Part shown: in pieces, positions 17,049 to 34,539 of the stretch
Numbering within the stretch: position 1 is the first letter of the stretch
Layout: each line of letters starts with the position of its first letter
Origin: Moraxellaceae bacterium
GTDB lineage: Bacteria; Pseudomonadota; Gammaproteobacteria; Pseudomonadales; Moraxellaceae
Direction of reading: 5' to 3'
Assembly: GCA_030646295.1 (NCBI GenBank)
Contig: JAUSND010000003.1
Location: forward strand, 1 to 64,000
Length of the DNA stretch: 64,000 nucleotides
The notes under the pieces: generated by a model
Database searches by the model: none
Told to the model about the DNA's origin: nothing
What the model saw: only the letters and a program-made list of their open reading frames with translations
Position numbers and translations under genes: made by a program

Positions 17049-17093
17049 TTAGACTCAGGTCGTACGGACAGACGGTGGCTGGCGATGTACCAT
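17049..17093 (+). promoter_or_regulatory. Candidate CrbR-type site and -10 upstream of sthA
   Basis: TTAGACTCAGGTCGTA at 17049-17064 matches the 16-bp element found at the acs promoter. TACCAT at 17088-17093 starts 31.5 bp from the element centre, the same distance as at the four other copies. The -10 match is weak (TA...T), as expected if an activator is needed. This is the least palindromic copy. Confidence 0.5.
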
Positions 17094-20097: not shown

Positions 20098-20142
20098 TTA
20101 GACCATCGGCTAATACCCCCTGTGGCAGTGGACTCCGATACT
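20098..20142 (+). promoter_or_regulatory. Candidate CrbR-type site and -10 of acs
   Basis: TTAGACCATCGGCTAA (20098-20113), then GATACT at 20137-20142, again 31.5 bp from the centre. Fourteen bases of this element (20100-20113) are an exact inverted copy of the porin-side element, 80 bp away. TGTGGCAGTG at 20121-20130 is a second shared module. No good -35 is present, consistent with activator dependence. Confidence 0.65.
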
Positions 20143-20170: not shown

Positions 20171-22123
20171 ATGAGCGAGCCGAAAACCTATGCCGTGCCC
20201 GAGTACTATGCCGGGGCATCAACACTGAGTGACGCCGACTACGAGCGTTTGTATGCCGAGTCGGTCAACAACCCCGATGTGTTCTGGGCGCGTGAAGCGC
20301 AGTGTGTGGACTGGAGCCGGCCGTTCACGAAAGTGAAGGACACGTCATTTGATCGTGATGATTTTCATGTGCGCTGGTTTGAGGATGGTGAGCTTAATCT
20401 TTCGTACAACTGCCTGGATCGTCATCTGGCCACCCATCCCGACAAGACCGCCATCATCTGGGAAGGCGATCATCCGGCAGAGCACAAGCATGTGTCATAT
20501 CGTGAACTGCACCGTGAGGTGTGCCGCTTTGCCAATGCCCTCAAGGCGGAAGGCGTGCAGCCCGGTGATCGCGTCACGATCTACATGCCGATGATTCCGG
20601 AAACCGCAGTCGCCATGCTGGCCTGCACCCGCATTGGTGCCGTGCACTCCGTTGTGTTTGGCGGATTTTCGCCGGATTCACTGGCGGGTCGCATTGCGGA
20701 TTGCGACTCCAAAATAATCATTACTGCCGATGAAGGCCTGCGCGGTGGCAAGACCGTGCCGCTGAAGGCGAATGTGGATGCCGCACTGGCCCACGATGCC
20801 ACGGCTGATGTTGAAAAAGTGATTGTGGTGCGTCGTACCGGCGGCCACGTGAGCTGGAAACCGCACCGTGATCGCTGGTATCACGACCTGCTGGTGGGCC
20901 AGTCGGACGAGTGCCTGCCCCTGTCGATGAATGCAGAGGCGCCACTGTTCATTCTGTACACCTCCGGCTCTACTGGCAAACCCAAGGGCGTGCTGCACAC
21001 CACCGGTGGCTATCTGGTTTATGTCACCAGCACTTTCCGTCATGTGTTCGATATCCGTCCGGATGATGTGTATTTCTGCACGGCGGATGTGGGCTGGATT
21101 ACCGGGCACAGCTACATGCTTTACGGTGCGCTGAGTAACGGTGCCACCACGGTTATGTTTGAGGGCGTGCCGCAGTATCCGGACTGGTCGCGTATCGGGC
21201 AGGTGGTCGACAAGCACAAGATCACCATTCTCTACACGGCACCTACCGCCATTCGCGCGATGATGCGTGAAGGTGATCATCATGTACGCCTGAGCAACCG
21301 GCACAGCCTGCGTCTGCTCGGCTCGGTGGGCGAGCCCATCAATCCCGAAGCGTGGGACTGGTATCACCGTGTGGTGGGTGAGGGGCGCTGCCCGATTGTG
21401 GACACATGGTGGCAGACGGAAACCGGCGGCATGCTGATCTCGCCGTTGCCCGGTGCCACGCCACTCAAGCCTGGCTCTGCCACGCGGCCGCTGTTTGGCG
21501 TGCAACCGGCCATTGTGGATGCCGAAGGCAATCTTATCGAGGGGGCCTGCGAGGGTAATCTCGTGCTGCTGGATTCCTGGCCCGGCCAGATGCGCACGGT
21601 TTACGGCGATCATCAGCGCTTTATCGAAACGTATTTTTCCACGTACCCCGGTATGTATTTCACGGGCGATGGTGCACGCCGCGACGCGGACGGTTATTAC
21701 TGGATTACCGGGCGTGTGGATGATGTGCTGAACGTCTCCGGCCATCGTCTGGGCACGGCCGAGGTGGAAAGTGCGCTGGTGTCGCACCCGGCAGTATCCG
21801 AAGCCGCCGTGGTGGGCATGCCGCATGACATCAAGGGGCAGGGTATTTATGCCTACGTCACGCTGCAGGCCGATCGTGAACCGGACGAAAAGCTGCGCAA
21901 GGAATTGCGTGACTGGGTGCGTCAGGAGATCGGCCCGATTGCCACGCCAGACGTGATCCAGTGGGCGCCTGGCCTGCCAAAGACACGTTCCGGAAAAATC
22001 ATGCGCCGCATCCTGCGAAAAATTGCCGCACACGAACTGGACGGACTGGGCGATACATCGACGCTGGCGGACCCATCAGTGGTGGACAGCCTGATTGAAG
22101 GGCGTCTACAGTTGGTCTCATGA
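20171..22123 (+). CDS. acs: Acetyl-CoA synthetase
   Basis: 650 aa. AMP-forming activation of acetate. [20 protein letters not shown] is the P-loop; [10 protein letters not shown] and [21 protein letters not shown] form the adenylate-binding and hinge motifs. [11 protein letters not shown] holds the regulatory lysine K609, the residue known to be acetylated in Salmonella Acs. Length is typical (about 650). It overlaps crbR by 4 nt (ATGA), so the enzyme and the regulator are co-translated. AGGAGG precedes the ATG. Confidence 0.97.
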
Positions 22124-22785
22124 AACTGATTATTGCTGACGACCATCCACTCTTCCGCGACGCGCTACGGCGCGCGGCGGAAGTACTGTTGCCGGATGCA
22201 CACATTCTGGAGGCGGACAGTGTGGCTGCGCTGCAGACACTGCTGGAACGCGAGCCGGATACCGATCTGTTGCTGCTGGACCTGCACATGCCGGGTGCCA
22301 CGGGATTTTCCGGGCTGGTGTTTGTGCGTGCGCATCATCCGTCCGTACCGGTGATTGTGGTCTCCGGCAATGAAGAACCCCAGGTGATGAAGCGTGCCAT
22401 GGCACATGGTGCCAGTGCCTACATTCCCAAGTCGTCGTCCACCGACCGCATGCGCGAGGCCATTCAAGCCGTGCTGGATGGTGATACCTGGTTGCCACCG
22501 GAAGTGAATGCTGCCGACCATCGTCTTTCCGTCGATGAGGCGGATATTGCCCGCCGTGTGCGGGAACTTACACCGCAGCAGTTCCGGGTGCTGATGATGC
22601 TGGCCGATGGCTTGCTCAACAAGCAGATTGCCTACGAGCTGGGCGTTTCCGAAGCGACCATCAAGGCGCACATGACCGCCATCCTCAAAAAACTGGGTGC
22701 CAGCAATCGTACGCAGGCAGTCGTTGCTGCTGCACGCCTGCAGATTGACCCCAGCATGCGCATCGAGGTGGTGGAGGAAGAGTAA
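22120..22785 (+). CDS. crbR: LuxR/NarL-type response regulator, CrbR (ErdR-like)
   Basis: 221 aa. The receiver domain (residues 1-120) has the acidic pocket IIADDHP and the phospho-acceptor D54 in [13 protein letters not shown]. The LuxR-type HTH (about 150-210) reads [42 protein letters not shown] in two conserved halves. In Vibrio and Pseudomonas, CrbR/ErdR paired with the SLC5-fused kinase CrbS/MxtR activates acs. Here acs is directly upstream with a 4-nt overlap, and a CrbS-like kinase is 5 kb away, so the assignment rests on context as well as sequence. Confidence 0.85.
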
Positions 22786-27206: not shown

Positions 27207-27246
27207 TAAAAAAGCCCCGGTGCCGTAAAGCGCCGGGGCTTTTTTA
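27207..27246. terminator. Bidirectional intrinsic terminator
   Basis: A-run, GCCCCGGTGC, short loop, GCGCCGGGGC, T-run. Serves the SDR gene (+) and the convergent FKBP gene (-). Confidence 0.92.
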
Positions 27247-28024: not shown

Positions 28025-31000
28025 CTATGCCCCAGGGCCCTGCGCCGCCAGAAAAGCTCGCAATGCCGCCGGTTTCACCGGTTTGCGCAGCAGGGTAAAG
28101 CCGGCTTCCCGTACCTGCTGGGCCAGTTCCTCGGAGTGATCGGCGGTAATCAGGGCTGCCGGCAGCCCGCGGGTCAGGCGTTTGAGCAGGCTCAGGCCGT
28201 TTTCCTCGGTGCCCAGGTGGTAGTCCGCCAGAATCACGTCGACGCGGTCGGCAGAGCCGGATTCGCCCAGTAACAGTTCGGCCTCTACCGGGTGGCTGGC
28301 CAGGTAGACCGTGCAGCCCCAGCGGCTGAGCAGGGCATTCATGCCGGCCAGAATGTCGGGCTCGTTGTCGATGCAGAGCACGTGCAGGCCGGCCAGCGGG
28401 TGTTGCGAGGCGCTGCTACCGGCTTCGGCAGGCAGGGCAGGGGCGGCGGCGGCACGGGGCAGGGTGACGGAGAACACGGCCCCATGCCCGGGGGCGGAGC
28501 GGACGGCCACACTATGGCCGAGCAGGCGCGCCATGCGGTCCACGGTGGCCAGACCAAGCCCCATGCCTTTTTCACCCCATGGCGAGGCCTCTCCGCCGCG
28601 GTGAAACTCTTCAAAAATCTGGGTCTGCTTGCTCGGGGGAATGCCGGGGCCGGTGTCCCATACCTCAATGCGCAGGCCTCCCGTCGTGCGGCGCACGCCC
28701 ATGATGACGCGGCCATGACGGGTGTAGCGCAGGGCATTGCTCAGCAGGTTCTGCAGGATGCGCCGCAGCCATTGCCGGTCACTGCTCACCCATGCCTGCG
28801 TACGCACGATATGCAGCTGCAGGTTGCGGCGTTCGGCCAGGGCGGCGAATTGCCCCCGCATGCTTTCAAACAGGTCATCAAGCGACACCGGTGTGATGTT
28901 GGGCGTCAGTGCACCGGCATCCAGTCGCGAAATTTCCAGCAGGGCAGAAAGCAGTTCCTCGGCACCATGCAGCGAGCTGTCAATCTGCTGCACCAGTTCG
29001 CGCTCCCCGGCCTTGTCCCCGGTTTGTTGCTGCAGTGCGGTCACAAAGAGACGTGCCGCATTCATGGGTTGCAGCAGATCGTGACTGGCTGCCGCAATGA
29101 ACCGGGTTTTTGACAGGTTCGCTTCCACGGCCTGCTGTTTGGCGGCTTCCTGTGCGCCAAGTGCAGCGCGCAACTGTTGGGTGCGTTCTTCAACGCGCTG
29201 CTCCAGTGCCTGCTTGGCATCGGCCAGTGCCTGTTCGGTGCGCTTGAAGTGCGAGACATCGGTGAACGTCGTGACAAAACCACCGCCGGGGATGGGTTGT
29301 CCGCGCATTTCAATGACACGACCATCGCTGCGCACACGTTCAAATACATGCGGGCTGCCGGCGCGCATGTATTCCACGCGCTTGCGGACATGCTCATCAA
29401 TGTCACCGGGCCCGCACTCACCCCGTTGTGCATTGAAACGGATGAGGTCGCTCACCGGGCAGCCGACATAGACCAGTTCCGGCGGGTAGTCGAACAGTTC
29501 CATGTAGCGCCGGTTCCAGGCGACCAGACGCAGCTCGGCATCAACCACGCTGATGCCCTGCGTGATGTTTTCCATCATGGTGGAGAGCAGGTCGCGATTG
29601 AAACGCTGCAATTGCGAGGTCTGGTCCAGCAGCGACATCACCTGACCGATTTCCATGCCGCTGCCGCGCAGGGTGCTGGTGATCATGGCGCGGGCCGACG
29701 GCGCCCCGATGGCACCTGCCAGCAGGCGTTCGGTGAACTGCCACCACGGGGCACTCGCATGACGGCGGACATCAAGGGTTTCGTTGCGGTTGCGGGCAAA
29801 TGTCTGAAAGGCCTGGTGTGCCGGGCCTTCGCCCACAATGCGCGCGGCCAGGTCCTGCAGCTCGCTCAGCGGCAGGCGTTCCCATTCTGCCGGACTCACC
29901 GGCGCACTGGGCGTGGCATACGGGTCCAGGAACGGCGTGGCCTGAATCTGCTCGTTGAGCGTGGGGCGGTAGCGCAGGGAGATCAGTACAAACAGGCTGA
30001 TATTGGCGAGCAGTGACCAGAACACCCCGTGTGTCAGGCTGTCCCAGCCGGAAAGGTTGAACAGTGATTCGGGACGCAGCCAGTCAAGGCCCAGAGGCCC
30101 CTGCTGAACCCACTCGGGCGTGTGCCCACCGGCGCGGCCAAGGGCTGGCAGCAGTAACGTATACAACCACAGGCCAAAGCCTGCACACAGGCCGGCGGTA
30201 ACGCCATGACGACTGCCGCCACGCCAGAACAGCCCGCCGACAATGGCCGGTGCAAATTGCGCCATGGCAGCAAAGGCCAGCAGGCCAATGGTGGCCAGTT
30301 GTTCGAATTCATTAATGAGGCGATAGCAGCCATAACCCAACAGCGCGATCACGATGATCGAGAGCCGGCGCGTGGCCAGCAGCAGGCCCTTTATCTGCCG
30401 GCGCTCGCCCAGTCGCAATGACTTGATGCGCCACAGCGCTGGTATCACCAGATCGTTGCTGACCATGGTGGAGAGGGCAACGGTGGCGACAATCACCATG
30501 CCGGTGGCCGCAGAAAATCCGCCGAGGAATACCAGCATGGCCAGCGCGGGCTGATCGGCCACCAGTGGCAGGGCCAGTACCGCAATGTCCGGGTTGATGC
30601 CGGCCAGGCGCGGATCGGTCAGTGCGGCCACGGCAATCGGCAATACCGCCAGCGTCACCAGCAGCAGATAGCCACCAAACAGCCAGCGCGCGCCACGCAC
30701 ATGGCGCACATCGTCGCACTCCACCACACTCACATGAAACTGTCGGGGCAGACAGAAAAATGCCACAAAGGCGAGCAGCGTCTGTGCCATGAAACCGTGG
30801 GGCAATTCGCCGGGCCGCACCAGTTTCTGCAGGCGTTCATCCTGCAGCAGGTTGGTATCCGGCAAGGTGCCCAGTGCAAAGCAGCCAACGGCAACCAGCG
30901 CCGCCAGCTTCACCACCGACTCCATGCCGATGGCCAGCATCAGGCCCAGATGATGCTCGCTGGCGTCCAGCCGGCGGGTGCCAAAGAGAATGGCCAGCAG

Positions 31001-31501
31001 GGCCAGGAACAAGGCCGTCCACAGTGCAATGTCGCCGGGGATGATGTCGTGGCTAAGGCCGTGCCCACCCATTACCTCCACGCTCATGGCAACGGCTTTC
31101 AGTTGCAGCGCGATATAGGGAAGGATGCCGATGACGGCAAAGACGGCGACCAGTGCCGCCAGGTGTTGTGCCTTGCCGTAACGGGCGGCAATGAAGTCCG
31201 CAATCGAGGTGACGGGCTGCGCCTTGCTGGCCAGGATCAGGCGTTCCCAGATGCGGTGCCCGAAGAAAACCAGCAGCAGTGGCCCCAGGTTGATCGGCAG
31301 GAAGCTCCAGCCGCTCTGCACGGCAGCACCCACGGCCCCGTAGAACGTCCACGAGGTGAAATACACCGCCAGCGTCAGGCTGTAGAGCACCATGCGCTGG
31401 CGAGGGCTGAACCGGCCTTCCTGCCGGTCGCCCCAGAAGGCGAGGGCAAACAGCAGGCCGAGATACACCAGGGTGATGAGTGGCAGAATCCAGGCAGACA
31501 T
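28025..31501 (-). CDS. crbS: SLC5-fused hybrid histidine kinase, CrbS (MxtR-like)
   Basis: 1158 aa. The N-terminal half (about 1-500) is a sodium:solute symporter (SLC5) with roughly 13 membrane helices. A PAS-like domain follows (MMENITQGISVVDAELRLVA, about 650-760), then a short coiled coil, HisKA with H807 in AAASHDLLQPMNAA, HATPase (NLLSNALRYT, DTGPGIP, KGMGLGLATV) and a C-terminal receiver with D1093 in VILADYHLG. This is the architecture of CrbS/MxtR, which with CrbR/ErdR senses acetate metabolism and activates acs. The transport domain may sense or carry acetate. The acs-crbR pair lies 5 kb away. Confidence 0.9.
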   Translation of the reverse strand: MSAWILPLITLVYLGLLFALAFWGDRQEGRFSPRQRMVLYSLTLAVYFTSWTFYGAVGAAVQSGWSFLPINLGPLLLVFFGHRIWERLILASKAQPVTSIADFIAARYGKAQHLAALVAVFAVIGILPYIALQLKAVAMSVEVMGGHGLSHDIIPGDIALWTALFLALLAILFGTRRLDASEHHLGLMLAIGMESVVKLAALVAVGCFALGTLPDTNLLQDERLQKLVRPGELPHGFMAQTLLAFVAFFCLPRQFHVSVVECDDVRHVRGARWLFGGYLLLVTLAVLPIAVAALTDPRLAGINPDIAVLALPLVADQPALAMLVFLGGFSAATGMVIVATVALSTMVSNDLVIPALWRIKSLRLGERRQIKGLLLATRRLSIIVIALLGYGCYRLINEFEQLATIGLLAFAAMAQFAPAIVGGLFWRGGSRHGVTAGLCAGFGLWLYTLLLPALGRAGGHTPEWVQQGPLGLDWLRPESLFNLSGWDSLTHGVFWSLLANISLFVLISLRYRPTLNEQIQATPFLDPYATPSAPVSPAEWERLPLSELQDLAARIVGEGPAHQAFQTFARNRNETLDVRRHASAPWWQFTERLLAGAIGAPSARAMITSTLRGSGMEIGQVMSLLDQTSQLQRFNRDLLSTMMENITQGISVVDAELRLVAWNRRYMELFDYPPELVYVGCPVSDLIRFNAQRGECGPGDIDEHVRKRVEYMRAGSPHVFERVRSDGRVIEMRGQPIPGGGFVTTFTDVSHFKRTEQALADAKQALEQRVEERTQQLRAALGAQEAAKQQAVEANLSKTRFIAAASHDLLQPMNAARLFVTALQQQTGDKAGERELVQQIDSSLHGAEELLSALLEISRLDAGALTPNITPVSLDDLFESMRGQFAALAERRNLQLHIVRTQAWVSSDRQWLRRILQNLLSNALRYTRHGRVIMGVRRTTGGLRIEVWDTGPGIPPSKQTQIFEEFHRGGEASPWGEKGMGLGLATVDRMARLLGHSVAVRSAPGHGAVFSVTLPRAAAAPALPAEAGSSASQHPLAGLHVLCIDNEPDILAGMNALLSRWGCTVYLASHPVEAELLLGESGSADRVDVILADYHLGTEENGLSLLKRLTRGLPAALITADHSEELAQQVREAGFTLLRKPVKPAALRAFLAAQGPGA

Positions 31502-31636
31502 TCAGTGCCTCGTGTGATGGTCTGGCCATTGGTAGCCCGGATATTCATGGCCCGGCTATGACCGGCTATGGATGGCTCGACCGTTGGTTAGCTGACTATG
31601 GAACAGGGCGTGACTGTCGTCCAGCCGGTCAGCCCG

Positions 31637-31681
31637 TTAGACCAAGGTCTAAGCGCTGTTCTATGGACAATGCGCTAGGCT
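31637..31681 (+). promoter_or_regulatory. Perfect CrbR-type palindrome and -10 divergent from crbS
   Basis: TTAGACC-AA-GGTCTAA (31637-31652) is the only perfect copy of the element. TAGGCT at 31676-31681 starts 31.5 bp from its centre, on the forward strand. In the opposite direction the matching position reads TCACGC, so the site points away from crbS, although it could also influence crbS, which starts 136 bp away. Confidence 0.6.
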
Positions 31682-31687
31682 GTAGGT

Positions 31688-31769
31688 ATGTAAAAGCTAG
31701 CAAGAGAAACAGGACGCATCATTTGGAGTGTTGTCTCCTTGTCGGGTACCGGAAGGTGCCCTTTTTTTT
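31688..31769 (+). ncRNA. Candidate acetate-regulated small RNA
   Basis: An 82-nt interval begins 6 nt after the -10-like hexamer and ends at a strong intrinsic terminator: GGGTACC-GGAA-GGTGCCC (31744-31761) plus eight T's. A second small hairpin, GGAG-TGTTGT-CTCC, lies in the middle. There is no credible reading frame (the only early ATG is followed by TAA). No forward-strand gene lies upstream that would need this terminator, because crbS and the exonuclease both run on the reverse strand. Transcription is inferred, not shown. Confidence 0.5.
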
Positions 31770-31823
31770 GCCCGGGCGATGCATTCCGGGTAATTCCGGT
31801 GCGAGTGCAGCGGCAGCAGGCAG

Positions 31824-32528
31824 TCATTGTGACTTCATCTGTTCCAGCTGCTGATACAGCCGGATTTTCTTTTGCAGGTCGGCCACGGTTTGCAGGCCGT
31901 CACGACGCGCCGCACGTAACAGGATCAGTGTCAGCTCGGCCGTGACAAAGGCATCAGCCGCCGCTTCATGGCGCGCATGATTGTGCAGCCCGAAAAAATT
32001 CGCCCAGTCATCCAGTCCGCGTAATCCGTCGCGCTCTTTCGGGAACAGGGCGGGCAGGCAGACGGCAAGGTCCAGCCACAGGCGGGCAGGCACCATGCCG
32101 AAGTGCTGCCGGGTGGCACGCTCGACCATGTTCTGGTCAAACACCGAATGGAATGCAAAAAACACGGCAGGCCCGGACCACTGGTAAAAGCGCAACAGTA
32201 CCTCTACCGGAATGTCGCCGGTGGCAATCGCCTCGCTGCCAAGACCATGCAGCAAAACGGTGTCGCGCGTATCGGCACCGGCTTGCGCCAGCACGGCCTC
32301 AAACTGGTCGGCAAGACGGATCTGCTCCGCTTCGATGGCAACGGCACCGATGGACAGCAACAGGTCCTTCTGCATGTTGAGGCCGGTACTTTCCACATCC
32401 ACCACCACAAAGCGGCAGTCATGCAGTGACAGTTGTGCCGGTGCCGCCGGGGCGGTAATGGCCGCCAGTGCACGACGGTCGCCTACCGCCGCTGCAGGTT
32501 TTCCTAGAAGTCGCGTCAGCCAGTTCAT
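31824..32528 (-). CDS. DEDDh 3'-5' exonuclease (DNA polymerase epsilon-like)
   Basis: 234 aa. Exo I VVVDVESTGL (Asp and Glu), exo II VFFAFHSVFDQNMVE (Asp), exo III NHARHEAAADAFVTAEL (His and Asp) give the complete DEDDh set. It starts 7 nt after the DUF294 gene, forming one operon. The same pair of genes is found beside acetate permease genes in Pseudomonas, which supports a place in the acetate regulon; its substrate there is unknown. Confidence 0.88.
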   Translation of the reverse strand: MNWLTRLLGKPAAAVGDRRALAAITAPAAPAQLSLHDCRFVVVDVESTGLNMQKDLLLSIGAVAIEAEQIRLADQFEAVLAQAGADTRDTVLLHGLGSEAIATGDIPVEVLLRFYQWSGPAVFFAFHSVFDQNMVERATRQHFGMVPARLWLDLAVCLPALFPKERDGLRGLDDWANFFGLHNHARHEAAADAFVTAELTLILLRAARRDGLQTVADLQKKIRLYQQLEQMKSQ

Positions 32529-32535
32529 GACTGCC

Positions 32536-34479
32536 TCACAGCTGCCAGGTCAGCGCCAGCACTTGCTGCAGACGCTGAGCCTGACGGAAGGATTCGCGCA
32601 GGATGCGTGCATCCAGCGGATTCAGTGTTTCCGGCTTCAGCCGGTTATCCAGCGGCTCACTTGCTGCCCTGCGTTCCTGGTGATGACGCATGCGCAACAG
32701 GTGCAGCAGGCTGTAGGCCTCTATCCATGCATTCACATCCGGGGCGGTCAGCACGCCGGCCGCCTGCAGTGCCTCCAGTCGGTCAAAGGTGTTGGTGGCG
32801 GCAATATCTTTTGAGTAGGCCAGCACGCGCGCGGCATCCACAAACGGCGTCAGCCCCTGCAGCTTGAGATCAATCGTGTTCTTGTCGCCCCCCCTGGCGT
32901 AGACAAAGCCCTGGAAGAAATTGAGCGGCGGACGACGCTCCAGTGACATCTCGGCCATCATGCGCAGAAAAAGCGAATGCCCGCTGATGCGTGTGCGCAC
33001 GTGCGCGAAGAGTTCGTCTGCCATGGCCACATCACCAAAGATGGCACGGGCATCCAGAAAAATGGCGGAATGGACCAGATTCTGCGGTGTCCATGCCTCG
33101 GTGAAATGACGGTACCAGTCCTCCCACTCGCCCAGACTCAGGCAAAGCTCGGGATTGCTGGCCATGATGTTGCCCTTGCACAGCGTAAAGCCGCAGGCGG
33201 CCAGGTCTTCGTTGACACGTTTGGCAAACGGCAGCAGCCGTTCACGCATGGTGGCGGGTGTCATGCCCTCCGGTACGGTAAACAGGATGGCATTGTCCTG
33301 GTCCGTGTACAGCGTTTGCTCCTGCCGCGCCTCGCTGCCAAAACTGAGCCAGGTAAACGCCACGCCGGGATCATGCCGCGCCAGATTCAGTTCGATCACC
33401 CGCTTCACGGTGCAGTCATTCAGGCTGGTGATCACGCGCAGGATTTGTCGTGCCGCCGCGCCACGCGCCAGCATGGAATCAACCAGTTGCTGGATGTCTT
33501 CGCGCAGGGCCACCAGCGTGTGCAACTCGGGCGCCGTGGCGATGGTGCGGGTGAGGTGCACCAGACTGACTTTCTGCAGCGCAAACAGGTCACGCTCGGA
33601 CACCACGCCCACCAGTTCACGCTCGGGGTTGGTCAGGCAGACATGGGCAAAGTGATGGGCCGCCATCACCAGTGCCGCATCAAACGTGGTGTCATCCGGC
33701 GACAGGCACAGCGGGCGTTGCGTCATCACCGTCTGGATGGGGGCATCCAGCGCCGCATTACCGGCAATCAGTGCACGCAGGTCGCGCAAGGTGAAAATGC
33801 CGATGGGGTGACGATGATTGTCAGTGATGATGATCGAGCCCACATTCGCCTCGTGCATGCGCAGCACGGCTTTTTGCACCGGCGTATCCGGCGAGCACAC
33901 CACCGGATTGCGCAGGGCATAACGCGACAGTGGTGTGTCCAGGCTGGCTTCATCGCCCACGGTTTGTTGCGCTTGCTGGCGGATGCTGCGGTTAACCTGG
34001 TCCAGCAGGCTGCTCACGCCGCGCAGGCAGTAGTCGCGAAACACATCACTGATGGTGAACAGCTGCACGAACATCTTGCGATCAAGACTAAGGCAGAAGG
34101 TGTCGCCTACGGCGCGATGCAGCGTGCGGGTCGGCCGCTCGCCGATCAGGGCGGCCAGAGGAAAGCATTCGCCCTGGGTTATTTCGAAAGTGATCTCGAT
34201 GCCGGGTTCTGCTCCGGTCTGGGATTGCTGGTCGCGGGCAGAAGGGCGTTCGCCACGGATGCGCCCCTGCTTTACGACAAAGAAGCGCTCGGCGGGCCCG
34301 TCTTCCGGCCGTATCACTACCTCGCCATCGGCAAAGTAATGCAGCTCGCTGGTTTCCACGAACAGGGCCAGGTGCGCCGCCTCCATGTGGCTGAAGGGCG
34401 CGTAGTGGCGCAGAAATTCCATCAGGGCGCGTATGTTGGAACCGCTCACCCGCTGCGAGGTGGGGGGCATGGCAGACAT
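32536..34479 (-). CDS. cNMP-binding/CBS/DUF294 putative nucleotidyltransferase
   Basis: 647 aa. Domains in order: cyclic-nucleotide-binding fold (about 15-150), two CBS domains (about 180-310), a DUF294 nucleotidyltransferase-like domain (about 340-480; FGSEARQEQTLYTDQDNAIL has the G-S and D-x-D arrangement of GlnD-type enzymes) and a DUF294 C-terminal helical domain. It may modify a protein in response to nucleotides. Known Pseudomonas homologues lie next to the DEDDh exonuclease and an ActP-like permease. A CrbR-type element lies 45-60 bp upstream. Confidence 0.88.
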   Translation of the reverse strand: MSAMPPTSQRVSGSNIRALMEFLRHYAPFSHMEAAHLALFVETSELHYFADGEVVIRPEDGPAERFFVVKQGRIRGERPSARDQQSQTGAEPGIEITFEITQGECFPLAALIGERPTRTLHRAVGDTFCLSLDRKMFVQLFTISDVFRDYCLRGVSSLLDQVNRSIRQQAQQTVGDEASLDTPLSRYALRNPVVCSPDTPVQKAVLRMHEANVGSIIITDNHRHPIGIFTLRDLRALIAGNAALDAPIQTVMTQRPLCLSPDDTTFDAALVMAAHHFAHVCLTNPERELVGVVSERDLFALQKVSLVHLTRTIATAPELHTLVALREDIQQLVDSMLARGAAARQILRVITSLNDCTVKRVIELNLARHDPGVAFTWLSFGSEARQEQTLYTDQDNAILFTVPEGMTPATMRERLLPFAKRVNEDLAACGFTLCKGNIMASNPELCLSLGEWEDWYRHFTEAWTPQNLVHSAIFLDARAIFGDVAMADELFAHVRTRISGHSLFLRMMAEMSLERRPPLNFFQGFVYARGGDKNTIDLKLQGLTPFVDAARVLAYSKDIAATNTFDRLEALQAAGVLTAPDVNAWIEAYSLLHLLRMRHHQERRAASEPLDNRLKPETLNPLDARILRESFRQAQRLQQVLALTWQL

Positions 34480-34494
34480 CCTGTTTTGATTCTG

Positions 34495-34539
34495 ACTCTA
34501 GCCGTAATTGTGCTGTCTTGATCTTAGACCAAGGTCGGG
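34495..34539 (-). promoter_or_regulatory. Candidate CrbR-type site and -10 of the DUF294 operon
   Basis: Reading toward the gene, CCCGACCTTGGTCTAA (34539-34524) has the same core. TAGAGT (34500-34495) starts 31.5 bp from the centre and 16 nt before the ATG region begins, which implies a very short leader. Confidence 0.6.

Follow-up and report, generated by a model that had tools for sequence, protein, structure and literature searches.

A likely remnant of a deleted symporter operon beside crbS in a Moraxellaceae genome

Layout of the crbS locus

The window analyzed in this study is a stretch of 64,000 nucleotides (contig JAUSND010000003.1 of assembly GCA_030646295.1) from a Moraxellaceae bacterium, the genome of which (G000, 3.14 Mb) was scanned as a whole where indicated. 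In this window, the gap between the kinase gene crbS and an exonuclease gene holds a palindromic box that is followed on the forward strand by a -10-like hexamer and two hairpins, the second of which ends in a T run (Table 1). The first-pass annotation had read this gap as an acetate-induced small RNA gene divergent from crbS, composed of the box, the hexamer TAGGCT at a spacing of 31.5 bp and a terminator with a 7-bp stem, a GGAA loop and eight T's. All of these parts were present, and both flanking genes were confirmed to be on the reverse strand.

Table 1. Features of the crbS locus and CrbR-type boxes of neighboring genes and of actP (positions in the window unless another locus is named)
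Feature	Position	Strand	Basis or remark
CrbR-type box of acs, 2 mismatches	20098-20113	+	motif scan and phasing
acs	20171-22123		family match
crbR, response regulator with LuxR-type domain	22120-22785	+	family match
crbS, SLC5-fused hybrid histidine kinase	28025-31501	-	named after the first-pass annotation and the literature
-10-like CATAGT, putative crbS promoter	31595-31600	-	18 nt from the -35; CATAGT in 7/7 loci
-35-like CTGGAC, putative crbS promoter	31619-31624	-	by eye; counterpart in 7 relatives
CrbR/ACTU box TTAGACCAAGGTCTAA, perfect palindrome	31637-31652	(.)	motif scan and PMC5715377 (extract)
Spacer from box to -10, 23 nt	31653-31675	+	length equal at acs, DUF294 gene and actP
-10-like TAGGCT	31676-31681	+	TGCGCTAG common to the L032 symporter promoter
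Presumed start (about 31688) and 5' leader, drifted	31682-31709	+	16/28 nt identical to G004
Hairpin 1, AGGA/UCCU base, pairs 31711-31739	31710-31739	+	predicted for the isolated core
Intrinsic terminator, 7-bp stem, GGAA loop, 8 T	31744-31769	+	terminator scans
Exonuclease (RNase_T) gene, convergent with the RNA	31824-32528	-	family match
cNMP/CBS/DUF294 signal-transduction gene	32536-34479	-	family match
CrbR-type box of the DUF294 gene, 3 mismatches	34524-34539	-	motif scan and phasing
CrbR-type box of the DUF485 and symporter operon (actP)	L109 376-391 = G000:C13:205475-205490		23-nt phasing, CATGAT

The CrbR box and the forward promoter

When the whole genome was scanned, the box without mismatch was found once, at 31637-31652, in agreement with the earlier statement that the palindrome has a sole perfect copy, and this single site rules out a chance origin of the perfect box. 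With up to three mismatches allowed, 20 boxes were found in the genome versus 125 for a backward-read control pattern. Because the control pattern is commoner than the real one, boxes with 2-3 mismatches are no evidence by match alone, and the weaker boxes in Table 1 are supported by their place and phasing rather than by their match. Within the 64-kb window, four boxes with up to three mismatches were found versus 0.84 expected, a number reached by 1 of 100 shuffles.

The gap between box and hexamer was exactly 23 nt in four promoters, namely those of the present unit, acs (GATACT), the DUF294 gene (TAGAGT) and actP (CATGAT), and their hexamers match TATAAT at 3-4 positions. TAGGCT itself, 31.5 bp from the box centre, is a weak match (3/6), and a generic sigma-70 scan of 31000-32600 returned no promoter. 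The available extract of PMC5715377 describes the ACTU motif as CrbR-dependent, places it at -52 to -36 in the acs promoter of P. fluorescens and reports mutation that shows the motif to be needed. The locus in the window has the GAC-N4-GTC palindrome of such promoters, located just upstream of a putative RpoD-type promoter at an acs-like distance, and by the published sequence criteria the box at 31637-31652 is a CrbR site. The forward promoter is predicted to be under CrbR control and is probably acetate-induced. As in the ACTU/CrbR promoters of acs, actP and pflu5625 (PMC5715377, extract), the same palindrome precedes a sigma-70-type -10 at an acs-like distance and the same regulon members are found near the unit; however, a protein gene follows those promoters, whereas none follows the promoter in the window. 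For P. putida, the extract of PMC8402216 gives binding of the regulator to the actP-I operon promoter and to that of the CBS-domain gene PP_0354, and no shift with the acsA-I promoter.

The expected RNA and its conservation

A loose terminator scan saw 1 site versus 1.3 expected, which proves nothing. Under strict criteria (at least 7 pairs and at least 7 T of 8), eight strand-sites including 31744-31769 were detected in the window versus 0-2 per shuffle (n = 20), and a chance origin of the terminator was thereby ruled out. The expected RNA is probably ~82 nt long and runs near 31688-31769, with a presumed start. A search for small open reading frames found no credible peptide in the RNA region, and the single longer plus-strand frame in the gap (124 aa) reads through the terminator. 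The layout is that of a small RNA gene, being intergenic, with a promoter of its own (a sequence match only) and an intrinsic terminator, and without a credible open reading frame; our literature search found no CrbR-controlled sRNA. CrcZ has an Rfam model, and an Rfam search of the RNA returned no family at the cut-off and three chance-level matches at E up to 10, none of which was CrcZ. On the minus strand, no terminator-like site was found in 31502-31823, from the exonuclease gene to crbS, so that transcripts of the DUF294 and exonuclease genes may run into crbS; given such read-through, the short RNA would be antisense to the DUF294-exonuclease-crbS transcript.

A model of the RNA (R1) was then run with strict filters over 348 family genomes, and the unit was found in two of them, the genome of the window and G004. 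Among the 57 matches with E up to 1, only these two exceeded 30 bits (93.4 and 95.8 bits, respectively) and the next scored 29.1. The ten alignments listed rest mostly on the terminator. In L032, a relative with a symporter operon beside crbS, the only match listed lies at the operon 3' end; it is weak (16.3 bits), and unrelated terminators score comparably. Locus L031 and G004 represent one genome, so there are two distinct RNA sequences in all, between which the stems show no variation. The conservation check that the first-pass annotation had proposed was thus borne out in part: box, -10 and terminator are retained in this 94%-identical relative, but the strictly filtered search found the RNA, with no match above 30 bits, in none of the other 346 family genomes.

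From 17.0 to 37.4 kb, G004 is identical to the window at 88.0% of third codon positions and at 84.7% of noncoding positions outside the gap (n = 1020). Within the unit, identity was 15/16 for the box, 21/23 for the spacer, 6/6 for the -10, 16/28 for the leader, 30/30 for hairpin 1, 22/22 for linker and terminator stem and 8/8 for the T run, that is 27/29 for spacer and -10 together and 60/60 window positions for the core with its T run; G004 has one extra G ahead of the T run. Two mismatches in 89 positions have a probability of 5.5e-5 at the noncoding rate when reckoned site by site, a figure that treats dependent sites as independent and refers to blocks chosen afterwards. In the same region, 44 of 767 noncoding windows of 52 nt are identical, in three runs including this unit. 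Of the nine other noncoding gaps nearby with sufficient length, two likewise contain identical 52-nt runs, and the terminator at 27211-27242 with its 30-nt flanks is 97-100% identical to G004. Such equally conserved noncoding runs nearby weaken the conservation as proof of function. That core and promoter were kept while the leader drifted suggests that the unit is probably still transcribed and under some constraint, with a regulatory function as a candidate only.

This pattern could reflect, in line with the first-pass reading and irrespective of origin, a selected trans-acting sRNA, which CrbR would make on acetate and which, with Hfq, would pair through its hairpin or leader with mRNAs of acetate metabolism; we regard this as possible but somewhat unlikely. 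The mismatch-free core next to a drifted leader, the retained -10 and spacer, the 8-U tail and the presence of Hfq among the encoded proteins are consistent with it, although the part that drifted is the usual seed site and the identical runs in other gaps and the terminator at 27211-27242 are kept equally well. Folded alone, the core (31711-31769) forms a hairpin, a 4-nt linker and the terminator at -21.2 kcal/mol (z -2.83), better than all 200 shuffles, but the full-length RNA outdoes shuffles only moderately (z -2.36, with 5/200 shuffles as good). In the latter, the leader is predicted to engage the 3' arm of hairpin 1, which leaves hairpin 1 out of the minimum-energy fold of the window RNA, while the predicted fold of the G004 RNA keeps it (z -1.76 and -1.94); the two folds thus differ, and the two genomes show no covariation. 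No clear target emerged from a duplex test on 25 gene starts, in which crbR was the best, with 1/100 shuffles as good before any correction for 25 tests, and long imperfect pairing dominates. When a 15-mer of the core was used for an antisense search of the genome at up to two mismatches, three forward and three reverse sites were obtained including the own locus, versus two and two for the control.

Synteny and origin of the unit

The nearest relative with all parts is L032 (QR_Bin.12, also numbered G371/L114), which is placed in another family of the database and whose CrbS is 76-78% identical to that of the window. From crbS onwards, this locus has the box, a divergent operon of a DUF4212 gene and a symporter gene (VC_2705 family, 870 bits), a terminator and the convergent exonuclease and DUF294 genes. 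The order in the window is the same without the DUF4212 and symporter genes, and the gap from crbS to the exonuclease gene measures 322 nt versus 2225 nt in L032. Common to both loci are the box, the TGCGCTAG -10 region (the promoter region reads TGCGCTAGGCT in the window versus TGCGCTAGCGT ahead of the L032 symporter), the convergent exonuclease-DUF294 pair and a two-hairpin 3' end, in which a hairpin, a 4-nt linker, a terminator with a 4-nt loop and a T run reproduce the layout of the window core. In the more distant G461 (L142), crbS is likewise divergent from a DUF4212-symporter-DUF294-exonuclease array, which indicates that the symporter at this place is old.

Elsewhere, the box faces a divergent DUF485-symporter operon in all 22 loci read from three other genera of the family (g10, g12 and g15). 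In the six loci of genus g2 (L080-L085) no reference protein lies across from crbS, and both a symporter and an RNA of this kind are missing there. With shifts of up to 2 nt from the 23-nt spacing allowed, the forward -10 likeness reached 3-4 matches in 22/22 symporter-facing loci, and 1, 2, 2, 2, 1 and 3 matches in the g2 loci versus 3 in the window, and is a weak discriminator. DUF4212 was found in 0/9 genomes of the genus (completeness 59-99%). One DUF485 gene each was found in G000 and G004, away from the crbS locus and with a CrbR-type box ahead, and in G000 a full symporter lies behind it. A count in five genomes gave no DUF485 gene in G371, G461 and G009 and one each in G004 and G264. 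With g2 loci lacking both symporter and RNA, and with DUF485 in the g2 genome G264 and none in another g2 genome, G009, the history is not simple. In an order-level sample, crbS was above threshold in 99 of 195 genomes; among 28 order-level loci (L114-L141), a VC_2705-type symporter was near crbS in 11 and divergent in three (L114, L131 and L140, the last being a 27%-identity match), and most of the distant loci had no good box. On a plain reading, one symporter was replaced by another, where the old pair would have been lost and its promoter and end hairpins kept.

We consider it likely that 31637-31769 is the remnant, promoter plus 3' end, of a deleted divergent symporter operon that was acetate-induced. 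In the ancestor, CrbR at the ACTU box would have driven the pair of DUF4212 and VC_2705-family sodium/solute symporter genes, in an operon whose two-hairpin terminator faced the exonuclease gene. Both symporter genes would have been lost in the lineage of the window, and promoter, short leader and end hairpins would have stayed, such that the promoter would still fire when CrbS/CrbR is active and yield a ~80-nt RNA ending at 31769; on its other side, the box may act on crbS as well. Directly observed were the parts and their phasing, the synteny, the lack of the two genes and the conservation of sequence. From these we infer promoter activity, accumulation of the RNA and a deletion in the window lineage, and an insertion of the symporter pair in L032 could also account for the difference in gene content. 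The earlier claim of a stand-alone sRNA lost ground by this comparison, since the unit sits where relatives have a divergent symporter operon and looks like that operon minus its genes; its other half, activation of the RNA by CrbR, gained from the published ACTU motif, the phasing of three other promoters and the intact unit in G004. If the RNA is made and functional, the locus would allow the birth of an sRNA through an internal deletion in an operon to be traced, with the before-state (L032) and the after-state (window and G004) both available, and the acetate switch would gain an RNA output. If it is functionless, the locus calls for caution, in that a box, a -10 and a terminator outlasting gene loss can mimic an sRNA gene.

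The box also lies 12 nt upstream of the putative crbS -35. Relatives of crbS were found in 191 of the 348 family genomes, and upstream sequence was read for 35 crbS loci, 28 from the family list and seven others. GAC-N4-GTC was located 63-154 nt upstream of crbS in 34/35 loci versus 0/34 in a farther-out control stretch; the exception, L039, has just 44 nt of upstream sequence, and three stretches were counted twice under two locus numbers. By a looser 12-position score, the box was not always the top match (L033/L080 and L083). In L082, it falls inside the 3' part of a lipoyl-ligase-type (lipB-like) gene at 769-1440 on the crbS strand, and since the box is much more widespread than the RNA and kept also when facing such coding sequence, the box alone is no argument for an sRNA. 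These observations suggest that the box may act on crbS too. They would also suit a reading in which the box serves crbS by autoregulation, the forward side is silent and the terminator is a leftover, as would the pair of -35-like element and CATAGT toward crbS in seven loci, the coding sequence without a good -10 across from crbS in g2 (a family assignment tested in L082 only) and the CrbS site GTCGACCAAGGTCGTGT predicted in P. fluorescens at q 0.6 (PMC5715377, extract). Yet the spacer and -10 kept at 27/29 positions and the 23-nt phase shared with acs, DUF294 and actP argue against a silent forward side, and the distance from the box to the crbS -10 differs among relatives, which leaves this reading unlikely.

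A variant of the remnant hypothesis is that the symporter mRNA had a 3' end that served as a regulatory RNA in acetate metabolism even then, and that this part was kept when a DUF485-type transporter encoded elsewhere took over, an sRNA outliving its mRNA. We regard this variant as quite unlikely; if true, the unit would be a free-standing CrbR-induced sRNA shortly after its birth. Like the 3'-UTR-derived bacterial sRNAs described in the extract of PMC9438474, the window core looks like the part of an operon next to its terminator, but here the parent mRNA is gone and transcription would start from the promoter of the operon itself. Against the remnant hypothesis as a whole, direct sequence homology to the L032 untranslated regions is weak: local alignment to L032 was matched by 717/1000 shuffles for the 5' part against the leader and by 44/1000 for the 3' part, the latter alignment consisting of the T run only. 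A likeness to the ribosome site of the genome's DUF485-actP operon was seen in the CAGGA-CGCATCAT stretch of the core: the full window RNA scored 24 against this site (0/1000 shuffles as good; best of 32 control gene starts, 23), while the core and the G004 RNA scored 21, below the best control. An origin of the core from the actP ribosome site is suggestive, and by this likeness the core may descend from a 5' end instead of a 3' end. The core stretch GACGCATCATTTGGAGTG at 31713-31730 (+) recurs in G019 as a 20-nt match within a 322-aa open frame, and was rejected as an RNA homologue and taken as chance.

A decoy for CsrA, with three GGA motifs that stand at the hairpin 1 base and at or within the two hairpin loops, would recall the acetate-responsive BarA/UvrY system that drives CsrB/CsrC in E. 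coli (PMC8639471, extract), but is highly improbable with just three GGA, one of them within the paired base, and no variation among the sequences. The analogy to CrcZ drawn by the first-pass annotation was not borne out: as with CrcZ/CrcY of CbrA/CbrB, a short RNA candidate would answer to a two-component system whose kinase is SLC5-fused (PMC5715377, extract), and the leader stretch CAAGAGAAACA has 11 nt in common with a proposed P. aeruginosa Crc site (PMC3003667, extract), but a CrcZ-like sponge for Hfq/Crc is scarcely credible for an RNA of ~82 nt with a sigma-70-like promoter, a LuxR-type regulator, no AAnAAnAA and no Rfam match at the cut-off, whose 11-nt stretch is missing in G004, when CrcZ has five A-rich motifs and RpoN dependence (same extract).

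Three further observations concern CrbR-type boxes beyond the unit. The actP-type arrangement of a box before a DUF485 and symporter operon is likewise present in G004. In L082, the regulator site is embedded in coding sequence, and the other g2 loci (L080-L085) look alike, the family model having been run on L082 only. Finally, a 3-mismatch CrbR-type box (TTAGACTCAGGTCGTA, 17049-17064, + strand) has TACCAT beyond a 23-nt gap and precedes a pyridine nucleotide-disulphide oxidoreductase gene, which we take to resemble the soluble transhydrogenase gene sthA; this gene is a possible extra CrbR target that would tie acetate growth to NADPH balance.
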